DNA of 23,132 nt from a virus. Shown in pieces: positions 12,033 to 22,699 of the stretch. Positions within the stretch are counted from its first letter, which is position 1, and the number at the start of each line of letters is the position of its first letter. A program made the position numbers and the translations under genes. The notes under the pieces are model-generated. The model did not search any database. It was given only the letters and a program-made list of their open reading frames with translations, and was not told the origin of the DNA. The stretch covers positions 1 to 23,132 of the IMG/VR virus record IMGVR_UViG_3300042881_004520, one strand, 5' to 3'.

Positions 12033-12253
12033 CCAAGACCTGCATCAGGTGCAACCGCACTCTGCCGCTGGATGAGTTCTGGTCGAAACGGCCCACGTGC
12101 GCGGACTGCGCTCGAGAACTGTGGTACGCACCTAAGGCAAAGGTAGACATCACCAAAAGCCCTAACTGGCCCATGATGGAACGCATGATCCGGTTAGGGC
12201 TCATCTCTTACCCCGAAGAAGCATTCACCGATGACGAGAATAGCAGCGATTGA
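12002..12253 (+). CDS. Small zinc-finger protein
   Basis: 83 aa. CIRCNRTLPLDEFW and CADCAREL give a CxxC-x16-CxxC zinc site in the first half (about residues 14-40), the pattern of zinc ribbons found next to HNH-like and recombination genes in phages. The second half has no recognised motif. It overlaps the exonuclease end by 31 bases and the resolvase start by 23, so it is part of the recombination operon. No histidine or other nuclease signature is visible, so I would not call it an HNH endonuclease. A DNA- or protein-binding role is likely. Confidence 0.75.
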   Translation: MGRKEKHKPLTKTCIRCNRTLPLDEFWSKRPTCADCARELWYAPKAKVDITKSPNWPMMERMIRLGLISYPEEAFTDDENSSD

Positions 12254-12686
12254 CCCAGGAAAGAGCGGTGGGATCGCGTGGAATGATGCGGAAAACGTCG
12301 TGCATACGGCCAATATGCCGGATACGCCGACCGAAATGCTGGACCTGCTGAGGTCCTTGCGCGCTGGAGGAGTCTCGATGCTGGTGATCGAGCAGCTCCC
12401 AAGGTTCGTTGGGAAGAATATCCCCTCTTCGACGACTAGTGTCCTCTTTGAGAACTATGGGATCTGCATTGGAATCGCTCTAGCACTGGGATTCCGACTG
12501 GAGCGGGTCGATCCACACACGTGGCAGAAGGGCCTAGGCCTAGGTACTGCCCGCAACTGCGACAGCAAGGGCGAATGGAAGCGAAAGCTGAAGGGAAAAG
12601 CTCAAGAGCTGTTTCCCCATCTGGAGGTTACACTCGCAACTGCGGATGCCCTGCTCATCTATGACTGGGCACTGAAGAATAAGTAG
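12231..12686 (+). CDS. RuvC-like Holliday-junction resolvase
   Basis: 151 aa, typical of phage RuvC-type proteins. It starts with IAAIDPGKSGGIAW, where D8 is the first catalytic acid, then VIEQLPRF with E54, and ends with TADALLIYDWALK, containing D139 and D145 for the last acidic positions. These are the RNase H-fold catalytic residues of RuvC. The enzyme would cut branched DNA from recombination or replication before packaging. It is the last gene of the recombination cassette. A 215-base gene-free stretch follows. Confidence 0.87.
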   Translation: MTRIAAIDPGKSGGIAWNDAENVVHTANMPDTPTEMLDLLRSLRAGGVSMLVIEQLPRFVGKNIPSSTTSVLFENYGICIGIALALGFRLERVDPHTWQKGLGLGTARNCDSKGEWKRKLKGKAQELFPHLEVTLATADALLIYDWALKNK

Positions 12687-12740
12687 TAGTATTTGGCGAT
12701 TCGTGCTTGCGCATGATTCGCTTCCAATCACATTGAGCGC

Positions 12741-12886
12741 GTCCTCCCCACTGAGGACAAGGGATTCGCACCCCTGCACAGGATGAACACAGCAGAACCC
12801 CCAATCCAGCTACTGCCGAAGGCTTACGCTAGATGTCTACCATCTAGCGCCTGTGCCTGTGCGAAGCGGCAGTGGTTGGATTGGGG
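12741..12886 (+). ncRNA. Candidate structured RNA / leader before the replication genes
   Basis: The gap 12687-12901 holds no gene but strong secondary structure. The outer stem pairs CCCCAATCCAGCTACTGCCG (12799-12818) with CGGCAGTGGTTGGATTGGGG (12867-12886): 20 continuous pairs, two of them G-U. Inside it, CGCTAGATG (12827-12835) pairs with CATCTAGCG (12841-12849) around a 5-base loop, and AGGC (12820-12823) can pair with GCCT (12855-12858). Upstream, GTCCTC (12741-12746) pairs with GAGGAC (12753-12758). GCACAGG (12776-12782) is complementary to two overlapping CCTGTGC copies (12850-12856, 12856-12862), allowing a pseudoknot. The 3' edge is 15 bases from the next ATG. It could be a regulatory leader, a small RNA or a replication origin. 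Confidence 0.5.
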
Positions 12887-12901
12887 ATTTTGTTGTGAGA
12901 C

Positions 12902-13690
12902 ATGACCCATAAATTCAAAAGGAAGGCACCAGCCTTTCAGCTCTACGCTGATGACTTTCTGGCCGGAACACTCGATTTAAGCCAAGAGGAGGTTGGAGCG
13001 TATATCCGACTCCTATGTCATCAATGGAGCCGAGGTTCAATTCCGGTTGAACCGGAGAAGCAACAGCGGTTGGCTGGCGGTTTGGTTTCGGATGCAGTCT
13101 TGGCTAAGTTCCGGCAATGCGAAGACAACCTGCTTCGGAACGAAAGGCTCGAGGCTGAAAGGGAAAAGCAGGCCAATTACAGAAACAAGCAGCGCGAAAA
13201 GGGCCTAAAATCAGCACTTGCTAGAGCTGCTGCCAACAGGGGTTCAACCGCGGTTGCAACCACTGTTCAACCGACTATCCAACCGGATGGTCAACCGGAA
13301 GGCAACTCTCCGTCTCCGTCTCCATCTCCTACTATAAATACATACGTCGCTCTCGCTCCTGAGGCAGAGGCTTTGAAGGAAAGAATCTCCGTATGGTTCA
13401 AACGGCGTCCAACCACTCCTTGGAGCTCAAAAGAGATCAAAGCTCTGAAGGACGTGATCAAGCTGGGGACTCCACCTGAAGACATCGACCTCCTTGAAAG
13501 ACGTTACATGTCCGGAGACCAGTACCTCCGCAGGGAGATCATCACCCTGCTGAACAACTGGAACGGCGAGATCGATAGGGCTAGGGGCTTGTCCAGATCT
13601 CCTCAGCCCCAGCTCGAGCTCACAAAGCCCAAGCGACCCCCAGGCAAGGAGTGGATGGACGACCCGAATGACTGGAGGCATGCGCTATGA
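12902..13690 (+). CDS. DUF1376-type phage replication protein
   Basis: 262 aa. The N-terminus FQLYADDFLAGTLDLSQEEV followed by GAYIRLLCHQWSRGSIP is the signature of DUF1376 (YdaU-like) proteins, which are winged-helix-like and occur where phages encode an origin-binding or helicase-loading protein. A basic coiled region (about residues 70-105), a low-complexity stretch with SPSPSPSP (near 137) and a helical C-terminal domain (about 155-225) follow. The stop overlaps the DnaB start (ATGA), consistent with a helicase partner. The leader is unusual: no Shine-Dalgarno and a very stable RNA stem ending 15 bases before the ATG. Function as initiator or loader is inferred from family and context. 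Confidence 0.82.
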   Translation: MTHKFKRKAPAFQLYADDFLAGTLDLSQEEVGAYIRLLCHQWSRGSIPVEPEKQQRLAGGLVSDAVLAKFRQCEDNLLRNERLEAEREKQANYRNKQREKGLKSALARAAANRGSTAVATTVQPTIQPDGQPEGNSPSPSPSPTINTYVALAPEAEALKERISVWFKRRPTTPWSSKEIKALKDVIKLGTPPEDIDLLERRYMSGDQYLRREIITLLNNWNGEIDRARGLSRSPQPQLELTKPKRPPGKEWMDDPNDWRHAL

Positions 13691-15003
13691 GCGAAGAGAA
13701 CAGCCCGCTCTACGCAGAGTCCGACGAGCTGGGCGTCCTAGGAGCCTGTCTGATCGGTGGTCTGGATTCGGCTGCGGAGGCAATGCCGCTGTACCGTTCC
13801 GGAGCCATCTTCAACGCTGAGCTTCTTGAGATCTTTCAGGTCGTAGCCGCTTTGGAAGGAGAAGGCGTTGCGCCAGACATGCTCGCAGTAGCGCGCAAAT
13901 GGCCCGCCATTCATCCGAAGAAGCCCGTCCCTACAGAAGCCCTATCCAAGGCCATCGACGCCTGTCCTAGCGCCTCCAGCCTCGAATTCCACGCCACTGG
14001 AGTCAGGGAAGCCTTCCGACGACGCAGGATCAGGGAGATCGGCATGAAGCTTTCGGCCGATTCGACCAACCCGTCCAAGCCGGTCGAGGAGGCTATCTCG
14101 GAGATGGAGGCTGGATTGATCAACTGTGATCATTCACAGAGCAATCTGAAGGGGTCGAAGGCGGTCATGCTGGAGCTCATCGACGACCTTCAGGAGCGTT
14201 CCAAGCGCAATGGGGACATCTCTGGAATCTCCACAGGTTACCGGAAGCTGGACCGGATGACCGATGGGCTGCAGCCAGGAGAGATGTTCCTCGTCGCTGC
14301 CAGACCTTCGATCGGCAAGACCGCACTGGCCACCTCGATGGTCTGCTCGATCTGCATTGGAGCGAAGGTTCCGACGCTCTTCGTGACCTGCGAGATGTCC
14401 GAGGCGTCCATAGCGCGCCGCATTATGGCCTCTGTGGCATCGGTCTCGATGGGGACGCTCAAGCGTGGCAACCTCAACCCGAACGAGTACCAGCGGGTCT
14501 TCTCGGCCAACAGCAAGATCGGAGCTGCTCCGCTCTACTACTGCAATGCTGTGTCAGGAATGACATCGGCTCAGGTTGGGGCTGAGATCCGAAGGGCTGT
14601 GAGGAAGCATGGGGTCAAGGTGGTCTTCGTCGACTACCTGCAGAAGGTGCTGCCAACCAAGCGTCACGAGAAGCGGACCTACGAGGTGGCTGAGGTGTCC
14701 TCCAAGCTCAAGGCGATCGCGGACTCGTGCGGGGTATCGGTTGTGGCATTGGCCCAGCTGAATCGTGAGAGCGAGAAGGAGAAGGGCAGGACGCCCAGAC
14801 TCTCCGATCTTGCGGACTCTGGACAGATCGAGCGTGATGCCGATACGGTCTGTCTTCTGACACGAAACAGAGAAGAATCTCGTGGCGAGGCTCAGCTCCT
14901 CGTCGCCAAGCAAAGAGACGGCGAATGCGGTTCGGTTGGCCTCTGGTATGAGGGACCGTTCTGCCGCTTCGACGACAATCCAGAACTCAAGGAAGTACCA
15001 TGA
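13687..15003 (+). CDS. dnaB: Replicative DNA helicase (DnaB family)
   Basis: 438 aa, complete. A helical N-terminal domain begins with SDELGVLGACLIGG; the RecA-like C-terminal domain starts at about residue 180 with ISTGYRKLDRMTDGLQPGEM. Walker A is ARPSIGKT (205-212), the catalytic Glu lies in CEMSEASIARR (about 235-245), Walker B is VVFVDYLQ (312-319), then VALAQLNRESEK (about 353-364), DLADSGQIERDAD and the arginine-finger region VAKQRDG (R410). It unwinds DNA as a hexamer at the phage fork. The gene overlaps its neighbours on both sides by four bases, so it forms an operon with the DUF1376 protein and the MazG-like protein. Confidence 0.96.
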   Translation: MSEENSPLYAESDELGVLGACLIGGLDSAAEAMPLYRSGAIFNAELLEIFQVVAALEGEGVAPDMLAVARKWPAIHPKKPVPTEALSKAIDACPSASSLEFHATGVREAFRRRRIREIGMKLSADSTNPSKPVEEAISEMEAGLINCDHSQSNLKGSKAVMLELIDDLQERSKRNGDISGISTGYRKLDRMTDGLQPGEMFLVAARPSIGKTALATSMVCSICIGAKVPTLFVTCEMSEASIARRIMASVASVSMGTLKRGNLNPNEYQRVFSANSKIGAAPLYYCNAVSGMTSAQVGAEIRRAVRKHGVKVVFVDYLQKVLPTKRHEKRTYEVAEVSSKLKAIADSCGVSVVALAQLNRESEKEKGRTPRLSDLADSGQIERDADTVCLLTRNREESRGEAQLLVAKQRDGECGSVGLWYEGPFCRFDDNPELKEVP

Positions 15004-15779: not shown

Positions 15780-15986
15780 ATGAGCGAAATAGTTTCAAAG
15801 GAAGAACTGAATCAAGCACTTCATGGGGACAAGCCGGTCGAGTCCTGTCCCGTTCATGGGGACGAACCGCCTGCGATCAACGTTGGTGGACTTCTGATGG
15901 CAAAGCATGACCTTGATGGGCGCTGGTGCATCTGCTGCCTGTTGGAGTTCGCAAAGAAGAACGGATGCCATCGCCTCATCAAATGA
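15780..15986 (+). CDS. Small zinc-knuckle protein
   Basis: 68 aa. CPVHGDEPP and RWCICCLLEFAKKNGCH give a CxxH...CxxC pattern (about residues 23-26 and 50-53) that probably binds one zinc ion. No family is recognised. It leads the unit behind operator 2 and has no Shine-Dalgarno; the leader is ATTCCACAC. The stop overlaps the next ATG (ATGA at 15983). Small proteins like this, expressed first behind a phage operator, are often host-takeover factors, but that is inference. Confidence 0.65.
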   Translation: MSEIVSKEELNQALHGDKPVESCPVHGDEPPAINVGGLLMAKHDLDGRWCICCLLEFAKKNGCHRLIK

Positions 15987-16153
15987 AGAAGTACAAGAAC
16001 CGCCTCTCTCCTGAGACCATCGTCGACTACATCTGCGAAGCGGAGTATCGCGTCGGAGAGATAAAGGAGAAGGTCGTCATCTACCAACGCAATGGGAAGC
16101 ACTACGTCCGCAGGAAGACCGAGTTCTTCTCAAGGTTTGATCCGGCAGACTGA
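15983..16153 (+). CDS. Small hypothetical protein
   Basis: 56 aa from the ATG at 15983, chosen because it forms an ATGA overlap with the previous stop; the frame is open further upstream to 15926 but that would lie inside the zinc-knuckle gene. The sequence begins MKKYKNRLSPETIVDYICEA and ends with a basic, beta-like VVIYQRNGKHYVRRKTEFF and an acidic tail. No known motif. It follows the zinc-knuckle protein and ends 34 bases before operator 3. Confidence 0.6.
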   Translation: MKKYKNRLSPETIVDYICEAEYRVGEIKEKVVIYQRNGKHYVRRKTEFFSRFDPAD

Positions 16154-19989: not shown

Positions 19990-20218
19990 ACTAACCAGAC
20001 AGGTGGAAGAGGCCGGACTCTACGATCCGATTCAGGTCGGCGACAAGGTCATCAAGTACACAGGGGACTACACGATGAAGGGCACTGTGCTTGCGGTGTT
20101 TAACACCAGCGCAGGCCAGAGACGATTCGTGGTCGAGCACAACGCAGAGGCTTTCGGAGGCAAGGGCTACTTCCTCCACATATACGGACCAAACAACATC
20201 AAGAGAGACAACGCATGA
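19973..20218 (+). CDS. Conserved small phage protein (SH3-like)
   Basis: 81 aa. The core is beta-rich: IQVGDKVIKYTGDYTMKGTV, LAVFNTSAGQRRFVVEHNAE and GYFLHIYGPNNIKR. The pattern F.VGD.V.K.TGDY...G.VV..F.K..G..R.VVE....G.LHI... is a familiar phage small-protein family with an SH3-like barrel. Role unknown. It overlaps the gene before by 17 bases and the gene after by four (ATGA). Confidence 0.75.
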   Translation: MSSISELTRQVEEAGLYDPIQVGDKVIKYTGDYTMKGTVLAVFNTSAGQRRFVVEHNAEAFGGKGYFLHIYGPNNIKRDNA

Positions 20219-20478
20219 GCGACACACCCAAGACGGACGCGCTGGTCATCAACATCCTAGGCGTCGAGCTGGCATCCAAAGACCTCATCAATCTCTGCAG
20301 GGAGATGGAGCGTCAGCTGAACGTGAAGCGTTCGACCAAGCTGGGACGCCCGAGGATCCCGCTGGACATCCAGAAGCAGATTGCGGAGACGCCACACTCG
20401 ATCAGCTCAGCGCATCTGGCCAAGACGTTCCGCATCGCGAACAGCACCGTATCCCGCTACAGGAAAGTGGTTAAATGA
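20215..20478 (+). CDS. MSDTPKTD-family small protein with C-terminal HTH
   Basis: 87 aa. It starts MSDTPKTDALVINILGVELA followed by a helix with CREMERQLN. Two other genes in this cluster carry the same tag (21317 and 22037). The second half, GRPRIPLDIQKQIAETPHSI then SSAHLAKTFRIANSTVSRYR, looks like a resolvase-type helix-turn-helix. The first half is thus a shared module and the second a DNA-binding module. It overlaps the next mini-ORF by ATGA. It may be a small regulator; the N-terminal module has no known function. Confidence 0.68.
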   Translation: MSDTPKTDALVINILGVELASKDLINLCREMERQLNVKRSTKLGRPRIPLDIQKQIAETPHSISSAHLAKTFRIANSTVSRYRKVVK

Positions 20479-20549
20479 GCGATCATGTTGGTTCACTGAA
20501 ACCGACTGTTTCAGCGGTCGCTGAAATTTGGGAAAGGAGTGAACGATGA
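20475..20549 (+). CDS. 24-aa mini-ORF (possible leader peptide)
   Basis: ATG 20475 to TGA 20549, 24 codons, with an ATGA overlap at both ends (20475-20478 and 20546-20549). The first six residues, MSDHVG, copy the start MSDHIG of the next gene: the 18 bases at 20475 and at 20546 differ at one position. The rest contains VSAVAEIWERSER. It encloses two mutually exclusive hairpins. It may be a translated leader or a leftover of a duplicated 5' end. Confidence 0.5.
   Translation: MSDHVGSLKPTVSAVAEIWERSER
20496..20526 (+). promoter_or_regulatory. Mutually exclusive hairpins inside the mini-ORF
   Basis: CTGAAAC (20496-20502) pairs with GTTTCAG (20508-20514). The same TTTCAGCG (20509-20516) also pairs with CGCTGAAA (20519-20526), so only one hairpin can form at a time. 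The second ends just before the AAAGGAG (20533-20539) of the 20546 gene. There is no T-run, so translation rather than termination would be affected. Confidence 0.45.
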
Positions 20550-20896
20550 GCGATCATATTGGTGACGTCACCAAAATGGTCTGTGTCCACTGCGGACTAC
20601 CATTTTTCCGCGAGCAGAATCAAATCCAAAGCTATCGCTGCGGATCGTCATACGAGGATACGTTCCGGCCTCAGTGGGCACGTTCGATGACGTGTCTGGA
20701 GATACAGAACGGACAACTACAGGACCGCATCAATCTGCTAGAGGCAGCAAATTCCGATGTTGCTCGCATTGCCGCAGAACGTGATAGAGCCAACGACCGC
20801 ATCAAGCGGCTGGAGGAGGCTGGAGATGCGATGGCTCAGGACCACAATCCGTTTACCTTCATCGACTGGCAACGAGTCAAGGAGGTAAAGCCATGA
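20546..20896 (+). CDS. Zinc-knuckle plus coiled-coil small protein
   Basis: 116 aa with a good Shine-Dalgarno AAAGGAG at 20533-20539. CVHCGLPF and YRCGSS give a CxxC...C site (residues about 13-32) that may bind zinc. From about residue 50, a long helix contains EIQNGQLQDRINLLEAANSD and ERDRANDRIKRLEEAGDAM, a coiled coil. The RIKRLE element with its DNA (CGCATCAAGCGGCTGGAGGA) recurs in the genes at 21123 and 21317. Design is like the 19559 gene. No known function. Confidence 0.63.
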   Translation: MSDHIGDVTKMVCVHCGLPFFREQNQIQSYRCGSSYEDTFRPQWARSMTCLEIQNGQLQDRINLLEAANSDVARIAAERDRANDRIKRLEEAGDAMAQDHNPFTFIDWQRVKEVKP

Positions 20897-21126
20897 TCTA
20901 CTGCATGGCTGGAATCGTACTGCTCACAGTCTACAGCGCGGTACTTACGTTCTACATCATCCTCACAATTGAAAAGCACAACATACTGTGCGGAGCTGTT
21001 AGAGACCTAAATGACAAACTGTCGAGGTTTGAACGCAGTGATGAGTGGGGTCGCCTTCAAAAGCCGTTATCCGATCACTACACACTAGGCACTGACATCG
21101 CGGCGAACAAGGAGATCAATCCATGA
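20893..21126 (+). CDS. Small single-pass membrane protein
   Basis: 77 aa. Residues about 3-26 (CMAGIVLLTVYSAVLTFYII and flanks) form one clear transmembrane helix, followed by a soluble, charged tail with LNDKLSRFERSDEWGRLQKP. Shine-Dalgarno AAGGAGG upstream at about 20880; ATGA overlaps on both sides. Topology is probably N-out or a signal anchor with the tail inside. It could be a holin- or spanin-like accessory or a membrane-bound takeover protein, but a single helix and no endolysin nearby make a lysis role uncertain. Confidence 0.62.
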   Translation: MIYCMAGIVLLTVYSAVLTFYIILTIEKHNILCGAVRDLNDKLSRFERSDEWGRLQKPLSDHYTLGTDIAANKEINP

Positions 21127-21320
21127 GTGACGAGACGCCAAGCCAAGTGGATCTAGTCGAACAGCTTTACGATGAGAACAAGGCGCTGAAGGAGCGCATC
21201 AAGCGGCTGGAGGACATCATCAAAAGGGCTGGATACAAATTCTTTGAGGACGGCACAGATGGTCGGATTGCTGTCAACATGCTGACGATTCTGGATGAAG
21301 CGAGGGAGGCCAAGCCATGA
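21123..21320 (+). CDS. Coiled-coil small protein (duplicated pair, copy 1)
   Basis: 65 aa, Shine-Dalgarno AAGGAG at 21110-21115. After MSDETPSQVDLVEQLYDENK comes a coiled coil ALKERIKRLEDIIKRAG and a module YKFFEDGTDGRIAVNMLTIL. The last 42 residues align with the end of the next gene (RIKRLE, [YN][KR]FF.DG[TS]DG[RK][IV]A..MLTI), so the two arose by duplication. No known function. ATGA overlaps on both sides. Confidence 0.65.
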   Translation: MSDETPSQVDLVEQLYDENKALKERIKRLEDIIKRAGYKFFEDGTDGRIAVNMLTILDEAREAKP

Positions 21321-21595
21321 GCGACACTCCTAGGACTGACGCCGCCCACATCGGCATGGGAATCGTTTTCAGGCAGTTTGCCCAAGAGCTAGAACGCGAA
21401 CTCAACGCAGCGAATTCCATCATCCGCCAGCAACAGTTACTCGATGAGGAAAACCTCGCTCTGAGGCAACGCATCAAGCGGCTTGAGTCCGCCATCAACC
21501 GAGCATCCAATCGGTTCTTTGCTGACGGATCGGATGGGAAAGTTGCTGCTGAGATGCTGACGATTATGTGTGGAATTGCTGAGGAGGAGCCATGA
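21317..21595 (+). CDS. MSDTPRTD-family coiled-coil protein (duplicated pair, copy 2)
   Basis: 92 aa. It begins MSDTPRTDAAHIGMGIVFRQ and FAQELERELN, the same N-terminal module as in the genes at 20215 and 22037, then a coiled coil LALRQRIKRLESAINRAS and the module NRFFADGSDGKVAAEMLTIM shared with copy 1. It therefore combines two modules that occur separately elsewhere in this cluster. A Shine-Dalgarno GAGGGAGG lies at about 21302. ATGA overlaps on both sides. Function unknown; oligomerisation through the coiled coil is likely. Confidence 0.67.
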   Translation: MSDTPRTDAAHIGMGIVFRQFAQELERELNAANSIIRQQQLLDEENLALRQRIKRLESAINRASNRFFADGSDGKVAAEMLTIMCGIAEEEP

Positions 21596-21807
21596 AATAC
21601 AAGCTACAGATGCTCCCTAATTGCGGCCCAAGGGATGGGTTCTTCATCGTCAGGCCTGACAAGAAGATGATCTTCGATGTGAATCCAGTGACCATTGTGA
21701 AGGAACTCAACAGGTTGCTGCGTGACATCAAGAGCCTTGAGGTAGTGCGTGACAGGTTGCTTGAGAACGCATTGATCGCAAAGGAGGCCGGTAACAAAAA
21801 CCGGTAA
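21592..21807 (+). CDS. Hypothetical protein
   Basis: 71 aa, preceded by GAGGAGG at 21582-21588; ATGA overlap with the gene before. The sequence has a beta-like first half (MKYKLQMLPNCGPRDGFFIV, then RPDKKMIFDVNP) and a helical second half (IVKELNRLLRDIKSLEVVRD and RLLENALIAKEAG). No family is recognised. Its stop codon lies in the loop of an inverted repeat (21791-21818), after which the chain of overlapping genes is interrupted for 20 bases. Confidence 0.6.
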   Translation: MKYKLQMLPNCGPRDGFFIVRPDKKMIFDVNPVTIVKELNRLLRDIKSLEVVRDRLLENALIAKEAGNKNR

Positions 21808-21818
21808 GTATTTGTTAC
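21791..21818 (+). promoter_or_regulatory. Inverted repeat around a stop codon
   Basis: GTAACAAA (21791-21798) pairs with TTTGTTAC (21811-21818) around a 12-base loop that contains the TAA of the 21592 gene; CCGGT/ACCGG at 21788-21804 is a competing small stem. An ACACC half-site (21817-21821) follows. No T-run. It may mark an mRNA boundary before the 21828 gene, which has no Shine-Dalgarno. Confidence 0.35.
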
Positions 21819-21827
21819 ACCAACCCA

Positions 21828-22040
21828 ATGAAACTCAGACCCATAGCGTGGTGCGTGTCGCCAGAGGGCGAACCTACATTCAGTGAAATGAGCTACACCA
21901 TCAGGATCGTGGACGAGGGCGGCGGCGAGTACATTGAGGTGGAGGACAAGGATGGCAAGATCGGCTTCAACACAGAGGAGTGGCCGCATCTGAGAGACGC
22001 CATCGAGATCGCCATCAAGCAGACCATAAACCTAGAATGA
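21828..22040 (+). CDS. Hypothetical acidic protein
   Basis: 70 aa. Beta strands RPIAWCVSPEGEPTFSEMSY, TIRIVDEGGGEYIEVEDKDG are followed by a helix WPHLRDAIEIAIKQTINLE. The arrangement (strands then a helix with EEWPHLRDAI) resembles small phage proteins of the type I.I.DEG.G.Y..V......I.....EW..L..AI, which have no known function to me. The leader TACACCAACCCA has no Shine-Dalgarno. The stop overlaps the next ATG (ATGA). Confidence 0.63.
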   Translation: MKLRPIAWCVSPEGEPTFSEMSYTIRIVDEGGGEYIEVEDKDGKIGFNTEEWPHLRDAIEIAIKQTINLE

Positions 22041-22366
22041 ACGATACACAGCCCCAGTGTAGTGAGCAGCGCAGTGAAACCCCCAGAACCGACTCCAAGG
22101 CGGTCTTCTTCGGATTCAACCCAGACGATGGCGAGGAGTTCGTCACAGCCAAGTTCGCCAGAACTCTGGAGCAGGAGATCACCAACGCGGGCAGAACCAT
22201 CCAATCCCTAAGGGACAAGCTTCAGACAACCCAGATCCAGAACAGGGTCCTGCTCACGCTCTGTGAGGAGGCTCAGGGACTGGTCCTGAAGAGCCCCAAT
22301 GAGGCTTTGATCCGACGCTGGTTCGCGGACCTCAGAGCGATCCAGAAAGAGACGGAAGGGAGGTGA
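22037..22366 (+). CDS. MSDTPRTD-family helical protein
   Basis: 109 aa from ATG 22037 (ATGA overlap); the longer frame from 21980 lies in the previous gene. It carries SETPRTDSKAVFFGFNPDDG near the N-terminus, the third copy of the PRTD module, then FARTLEQEITNAGRTIQSLR, a long helix, and a C-terminal ALIRRWFADLRAIQKETEGR. Like the other two it probably works through helical oligomerisation. No enzyme motif is present. Confidence 0.65.
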   Translation: MNDTQPQCSEQRSETPRTDSKAVFFGFNPDDGEEFVTAKFARTLEQEITNAGRTIQSLRDKLQTTQIQNRVLLTLCEEAQGLVLKSPNEALIRRWFADLRAIQKETEGR

Positions 22367-22420: not shown

Positions 22421-22451
22421 AAGGCCCCTGGGAGACTCCTGGGGGCCTTTT
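22421..22451 (+). terminator. Rho-independent terminator between convergent genes
   Basis: AAGGCCCC (22421-22428) pairs with GGGGCCTT (22442-22449) and is followed by T at 22448-22451. It ends the long rightward operon. The A-rich left flank is too short for a strong leftward terminator, but the stop of the leftward gene at 22451-22453 touches it, so it may serve both. Confidence 0.75.
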
Positions 22452-22699
22452 CATTCCCTGACCCTGCGATACCCCTGCTGCCACACCAGAGAGGCCAGAA
22501 ACGCCGCATAGGCCTCCACCTTCTGCTCCTCCCATTCCGGCTCCATCAGATGCAAGAGCTCATGGATCAAGGTATCCAGCCTTTCCTCCTCGCTCTGCCT
22601 TGGATCGATCTCCACCACGTTGTCCCCATGCCAAGCCAAGCCATAGGCATTCTCCCGCCCCAGCTTCTTCTCCACCACCTTGACCTTCCTTGGCAGCAC
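22451..22699 (-). CDS. Small HExxH zinc metallopeptidase-like protein
   Basis: 82 aa on the complement, starting at GTG 22697-22699 with GGGAGGG seven bases upstream on that strand. The motif LIHELLHLMEPEWEE contains HELLH (about residues 46-50), with a following acidic helix VEAYAAFLASLVWQQG whose E may be the third zinc ligand. The N-terminal half has strands VKVVEKKL, GLAWHGDNVVEIDPRQ. The pattern matches small phage and bacterial SprT/ImmA-like metallopeptidase domains. It is the only leftward gene at this end and faces the early operon. The target is unknown. Confidence 0.75.
   Translation of the reverse strand: MLPRKVKVVEKKLGRENAYGLAWHGDNVVEIDPRQSEEERLDTLIHELLHLMEPEWEEQKVEAYAAFLASLVWQQGYRRVRE

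Follow-up and report, generated by a model that had tools for sequence, protein, structure and literature searches.

A pseudoknotted leader reading frame probably coupled to replication initiators in uncultivated phages

The replication operon of an uncultivated virus is preceded by a structured RNA element that is probably a cis-acting, pseudoknotted leader open reading frame (ORF), translationally coupled to the replication initiator encoded directly behind it. The element lies at 12687-12901 of the window (the whole 23,132-nt stretch of DNA that was analyzed), where it occurs once, flanked by a gene for a RuvC-like Holliday-junction resolvase (12231-12686) and by the DUF1376/primosomal gene. 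By our count, about 110 contigs of uncultivated phages carry the element, and comparison among these relatives establishes its pairing, its strand, its ORF and its gene context. We describe here an RNA family apparently not described before, in which strong natural covariation accompanies a leader ORF putatively coupled to phage replication initiators.

Results

A long stem, an inner hairpin and a two-part pseudoknot

The + strand of 12687-12901 folds with a minimum free energy of -103.6 kcal/mol, compared to -65.7 +/- 4.0 kcal/mol for dinucleotide shuffles (z -9.6, 0/200 shuffles), which places the strongly folded RNA proposed by an earlier sequence-only reading of this DNA far outside chance. 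The - strand of the same region gives a z of -5.9. All three hairpin elements named in that reading are present, namely a 20-pair stem (12799-12818 with 12867-12886), a 9-pair inner hairpin (12827-12835 with 12841-12849) and a 6-pair upstream hairpin (12741-12746 with 12753-12758). The stem is longer than had been noted, with 10 further pairs (12788-12797 with 12888-12897) past one mismatch, and a small additional hairpin, H3, presents the loop ATTCGCAC (Table 1). Pairing of GCACAGG with two tandem CCTGTGC copies had also been proposed. Both GCACAGG (12776-12782) and the segment CCTGTGCCTGTGC (12850-12862) exist, and the first CCTGTGC does pair, but the pseudoknot turns out to have two parts, with GTGCGAA (12859-12865) pairing with another hairpin loop, that of H3. 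The pseudoknot duplex of the window is predicted at -20.9 kcal/mol. The three GATTCG copies pointed out upstream are likewise all found, but the triplet is not conserved: L003, L006 and L011 are without the first two copies, yet the hairpin is kept.

Table 1. Features of the element and of the genes behind it, in window coordinates
Feature	Coordinates	Strand	Remarks
H1, imperfect upstream hairpin	12695..12721	+	Only in the window's close relatives; L003/L006/L011 keep the pairing with changed letters
H2, 6-bp hairpin GTCCTC/GAGGAC	12741..12758	+	GTCACC/GGTGGC in the C family, both sides changed
H3, 4-bp hairpin with 8-nt loop ATTCGCAC	12760..12775	+	Loop supplies the PKa 5' strand
PKa 5' strand, TTCGCAC	12765..12771	+	Partner 12859-12865, GTGCGAA
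PKb 5' strand, GCACAGG	12776..12782	+	Directly 5' of the leader ATG; partner 12850-12856, CCTGTGC
Leader ORF, 40 codons (MNTAEPPIQLLPKAYARCLPSSACACAKRQWLDWGFCCET)	12783..12905	+	Stop TGA overlaps the next ATG as ATGA
P1 5' strand of the long stem	12788..12818	+	10 pairs, mismatch, 20 pairs
P2 inner hairpin, 9 pairs	12827..12849	+	Double-sided changes in relatives
PKb 3' strand	12850..12856	+	Within the leader ORF
PKa 3' strand	12859..12865	+	Within the leader ORF
P1 3' strand	12867..12897	+	Ends 4 nt before the DUF1376 ATG
DUF1376/primosomal-protein gene	12902..13690	+	PF07120, E 4.9e-9; phrog_9327 primosomal protein, E 2.2e-16; putatively coupled downstream cistron
DnaB-like replicative helicase, next operon gene	13687..15003	+	phrog_19, E 4.8e-81

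The relatives fall into three families: A, the window's own (window, L003-L006, L009, L011 and L014); B, which is L164-like; and C, which is L015-like. Read from 5' to 3', the plan they share consists of H3 with its 8-nt loop, a linker, the leader start codon, P1 enclosing P2, the 3' side of P1 and the next start codon. One pseudoknot helix, PKa, joins the H3 loop to an inner segment bordering the 3' side of P1. The other, PKb, joins 4-7 nt close before the leader start codon to a second inner segment, which adjoins P2 in family A and lies within the P2 loop in family B. The distance from the extended stem to the initiator AUG is 4 nt in the window family and about 14 nt in the other families.

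Relatives found through genes and through the stem

Close relatives were collected by IMG/VR protein searches with the DUF1376 and RuvC proteins, and among them L005, L006, L009 and L011 have a quite different inner part within the same outer stem. The distant relatives L014, L015 and L017 came from a DNA pattern derived from the stem, and a relaxed 16-base pattern added more, its matches being mostly due to chance and sorted by a structural descriptor. To sample independently of the RNA, two scans used as query the 61-aa protein whose gene precedes the element in L015 and L014; the loci they returned have very different letters and the same element plan. In the window, a homolog (about 41% identity) of the small protein whose gene immediately precedes the element in other phages is encoded at 15926-16153, about 3 kb downstream, and no element adjoins it there.

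A covariance model built on the B family, R1, matches 64/64 B loci from the first scan and 41/41 tested loci from the second, among them the divergent types L200, L207, L214, L250, L263 and L265, on which it was not trained (E 1e-13 to 1e-18). R2, a C-family model from which family A was left out, recovers the window at E 1.2e-16 plus all tested relatives of the window. R1 detects no A or C members and R2 detects no B members; the B family is plausibly linked to A and C by the common architecture, an upstream gene that B and C have in common, downstream genes of the same classes and a shared GAGGCTTTC motif internal to L200-type loci.

Of the checks named in the sequence-only reading, the covariance-model search thus yielded homologous loci with compensatory changes, and the Rfam search yielded no family at the gathering threshold (Rfam 15, 0 matches for the window and 18 related loci); a permissive Rfam search gave only matches far below gathering scores. 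That reading could not match a tRNA or tmRNA, and ARAGORN likewise reported neither in the region. No relative of the element was found in the isolated phages searched, a pattern scan of genome contigs returned two records, neither of which has the module by the structural descriptor, and searches of open-access literature turned up no description of this RNA family in phages. A pistol-like ribozyme, suggested by the loop-to-internal-loop pseudoknot, was considered and rejected; there was no Rfam match, and the pseudoknot partner strand of pistol lies on the opposite side of the internal loop from that of the present element.

Covariation on the sense strand

The sequence-only reading had left its stems to be judged by compensatory changes in related phages, and such changes were found in both the stems and the pseudoknot. 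In the B family (41 distinct sequences), 95.7% of 1681 cells are paired and 21 pairs carry double-sided changes, compared to 37-42% paired when the partners are slid. The A family is 93.1% paired (37-46% when slid) and the C family 90.1%. PKa is paired in 100% of cells in the B and A families and 96% in the C family, with double-sided changes in each family, including 4/7 pairs changed on both sides in the A family. PKb is 99.3% paired in the B family, with double-sided changes in 5/7 pairs, and has weaker support outside it (81% paired in A, 76% in C). A natural minimal pair is provided by L162 and L183, which differ at 4/137 columns; all four belong to PKb and form two compensatory double changes (GAGAAAC/GTTTCTC to GATAATC/GATTATC). 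PKb is at the same time the most variable stretch of the B-family RNA, with a mean pairwise difference of 0.34 against 0.17-0.24 elsewhere, and is still 99% complementary. P1 also covaries in the gene-found B family, as CCCCACCC/GGGTGGGG, CCCCACTC/GAGTGGGG and CCCCATCC/GGATGGGG; its invariance among the pattern-found loci is partly by construction, those loci having been chosen by the stem pattern. In these alignments, then, the long stem, the inner hairpin and the two-part pseudoknot are each supported by changes on both sides of pairs. At the named pairs, each of the three alignments has more G.U than A.C cells (53:18, 41:21 and 44:2, the last being the window's family), which indicates a sense-strand (+) RNA rather than DNA or an antisense RNA.

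An open reading frame through the structure

The 215 bases had been taken for a non-coding gap. They are not: the stem and the pseudoknot lie inside a conserved 40-codon ORF, which fell below the cutoff of the first ORF listing (at least 50 aa). Among 54 distinct modules, the start codon of a matching ORF is present in all 54 (52 ATG, 2 GTG), and the leader frame reaches the next start in every one, with its stop at -3 to +53 nt or with the two frames fused (L207). It ends exactly at ATGA in 23/54, and in some B-family loci its stop instead lies 17-53 nt inside the next gene. Of the 54 modules, 17 and 26 are stop-free in the two remaining frames; the modules are related loci, so that these openness counts are not independent.

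In L170-type loci, a 1-nt insertion in mid-leader shifts the frame, and the ORF is still open and ends at ATGA. Similarly, the A and C families read the conserved segment TGGTTGGATTGGGG in different frames (WLDWG and GWIG), each of which ends at ATGA. The peptide sequence is poorly conserved between families. Because frame and peptide vary while the ORF stays open, the leader peptide is probably not the product that matters, and what is selected would be translation up to the next start. Across the 54 modules, all three possible offsets occur between the frame of the leader and that of the next gene; this lack of a constant frame relation argues against a programmed ribosomal frameshift. No Shine-Dalgarno site precedes the leader, which weakens the case for the ORF. 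Across the whole window (1-23132), a Shine-Dalgarno-like motif stands at only 10/33 likely gene starts, which suggests that the host initiates translation mostly without such sites.

A fixed element before changing genes

In every relative, a start codon follows the element after a few nt. The downstream gene classes are phage replication-initiation or primosomal (PHROG 9327, 9474, 16167, 1408 and 2149), and the initiator comes either directly after the element or behind one interposed gene, which is a C5-methyltransferase, an HNH-type gene or a 70-aa ORF and is then followed by the initiator. In L015 and L017, a 12-codon ORF sits between the element and the initiator. As several N-terminal parts and shared C-terminal parts make up the initiators, the element appears to stay in place while the gene behind it changes.

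Several further observations were made at these loci. The methyltransferase, HNH-type or 70-aa gene is inserted exactly at the leader/initiator junction (L162, L128, L177, L172 and L209), and in L128 and L177 the end of the inserted gene again abuts the initiator start. The initiators appear mosaic (12902-13690 in the window; L015, L135, L187, L164, L014 and L137), with unrelated N-terminal parts (DUF1376, MIVE.DFLDHW, MSNLYVRLH, MPNRYIRES and MRIR.IKPEF) on a shared C-terminal part, which is one of two, and they look as if exchanged at the border of the element. Elsewhere in the window, small overlapping genes at 20215-22366 have similar starts (MSDTPKTDA, MSDETP and MSDTPRTDA) and related coiled-coil-like parts, and are apparently tandem paralogs, while an ORF on the - strand (22451-22699) has the HELLH motif typical of small metalloproteases.

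Discussion

Several roles had been offered for this RNA by the sequence-only reading. A regulatory leader is the one with support, given its place at the head of the operon, its compensatory conservation, its sense strand and its abutment to a start codon; a self-cleaving RNA, a tRNA and a tmRNA are without support, and no observation favors an origin in particular. From this arrangement we infer both the coupling and the direction of control. The element would be the 5' leader of the replication-operon mRNA, structured and coding at once. In the folded state, the leader AUG would be a poor entry site owing to PKb at about -1 to -8, and the initiator AUG a poor one owing to the 3' strand of P1. 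A ribosome would load on the leader, perhaps before transcription of the RNA is complete, and in translating it would melt PKb, P2, PKa and P1 in turn, stop at the ATGA overlap and restart on the initiator gene. Initiator synthesis would in this way be tied to translation of the leader and to its folding state or folding time. In nearest-neighbor folding that excludes the pseudoknot, holding the leader open raises the openness of the initiator start in the window from 0.28 to 0.40, a modest change, and the gain is above 0.05 in 30/54 modules. The pseudoknot may repress, as argued here; activation, as reported for timP, would be compatible with the sequence as well.

A more far-reaching version of the coupled leader is possible but doubtful. 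PKa and PKb might form a phage-specific, fast-diversifying self-recognition code, with PKb masking the leader start by the leader's own coding sequence such that only nascent, unknotted mRNA is translated (a co-transcriptional one-shot gate), or with an antisense RNA of the same phage type resetting it. If so, RNA folding would set the dose of initiator, co-infecting related phages would differ in "incompatibility" by their PK alleles, and a phage would possess plasmid-style copy or superinfection control.

Other readings keep the same structure and assign it a different role. The same leader could be under antisense-RNA copy control of the I-complex or R1 type, in which a counter-transcript on the H3 loop or PKb decides whether the pseudoknot forms. 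Those replicons likewise combine a leader ORF, an initiator and a loop-to-downstream pseudoknot (PMC10286972, PMC10724649), and the variability of PKb at 99% complementarity would fit a specificity sequence. We consider this unlikely, as a scan for promoters of the sigma70 type located none near the element on either strand, no conserved antisense gene or terminator was seen, and variability at paired sites is expected without an antisense RNA too.

Leader ORFs that overlap terminators are the classical plan of attenuation. P1 is G+C-rich and followed by a U-rich tract in the window and the B families (GGGGATTTTGTTG, GGGGTTTCTGTTTG), and a leader ORF over such a terminator-like stem fits that plan, with P1 and the U-rich tract as a terminator that is blocked by the ribosome translating the leader. 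The C family, however, has no U tract (GGGGCTTCATCC, GGGGATTCAAGG) and retains the stem, the pseudoknot and the leader, a simple terminator scan (loop limit 8 nt) gave no match there on the + strand, and coupling at ATGA is better suited to control of translation, all of which makes a transcription attenuator rather unlikely. A stand-alone structured RNA (an sRNA, a scaffold or a ribozyme-like RNA) that overlaps the ORF by accident is more doubtful still. Such an RNA would account for a compact, strongly covarying, pseudoknotted fold and for the poor conservation of the peptide between families, but the ORF is open in every family, its start changes only from ATG to GTG, the frame again runs to the next start where indels occur, Rfam offers no family, and the element keeps its place just before a start codon. 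A DNA element, acting as a replication origin or single-strand initiation hairpin beside the initiator gene, would suit the site between recombination and replication genes and a broad minimum of the cumulative GC skew near 10-14 kb (a signal that is too coarse and in which gene direction is a confounder), but is highly improbable given the conserved ORF, the lack of any iterons noticed in the element and an excess of G.U over A.C (44:2 in the window's family) that is unexpected for function at the DNA level or on the - strand. Self-cleavage, frameshifting and a conserved terminator are all disfavored.

For the coupled leader, the closest parallels come from plasmids. Asano & Mizobuchi (1998) and Athanasopoulos (1999) reportedly described pseudoknot control of I-complex-type plasmid initiators (ColIb-P9 repY-repZ; IncB repB-repA). 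In I-complex plasmids, translation of a leader ORF is needed for initiator synthesis (PMC10286972), PMC10724649 cites control by a pseudoknot for repZ/repA of IncI and IncL/M plasmids, and the pseudoknot in the repZ switch of the IncI plasmid ColIb-P9 activates, according to a title cited there. The present element resembles these systems in having a leader ORF directly upstream that reaches the initiator start (54/54 modules; 23 at ATGA) and a pseudoknot that ties the loop of a 5' hairpin to a segment further downstream (here PKa, 96-100% paired in three families). It differs in that the segments engaged by the pseudoknot fall within the leader ORF (in the window, 37-52 nt ahead of the initiator ATG) and not beside the initiator ribosome site; in that the initiator is not of the RepA/RepZ type but an unrelated DUF1376/primosomal protein or belongs to phage replication-initiation PHROGs; and in having two pseudoknot helices, in a phage operon. 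In those plasmids, an antisense RNA is encoded opposite the 5' hairpin; near the present element, a sequence scan for sigma70-like promoters detected none.

In SGI1, the S004 leader ORF and repA overlap inside a long inverted repeat, and RepA is no longer made when S004 carries an early stop codon (PMC7826253). A leader ORF overlapping the initiator and a long inverted repeat are thus common to both, but SGI1 is an integrative element with an IncN2-type RepA, the passages of PMC7826253 consulted mention no pseudoknot, and the present stem is located upstream of the initiator start, not over it, and carries a pseudoknot. The type I toxin timP/TimR depends on a long-range pseudoknot in the mRNA leader; translation needs this pseudoknot, and an antisense sRNA attacks it (PMC11228461). 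Long-range leader pseudoknots would control translation initiation in both cases, but timP has no leader ORF coupled to a replication gene. With trp-type attenuators, the element shares a short leader ORF over a G+C-rich stem with a U-rich tail (window and B families); here, in contrast, the leader extends through the stem as far as the following start codon, and the C family lacks the U tract.

Short "gaps" before phage replication genes can thus be structured coding leaders that annotation has overlooked. Judged by its sequence, the element would work like the leader control of IncI, IncL/M and SGI1 but departs from it in two defining features, the place of the pseudoknot partner and the type of initiator, and it belongs to no IncI, IncL/M, SGI1 or Rfam family. 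The plan is familiar from plasmid copy control, while the fold differs, with two pseudoknot helices whose partners lie in the leader's own coding sequence.
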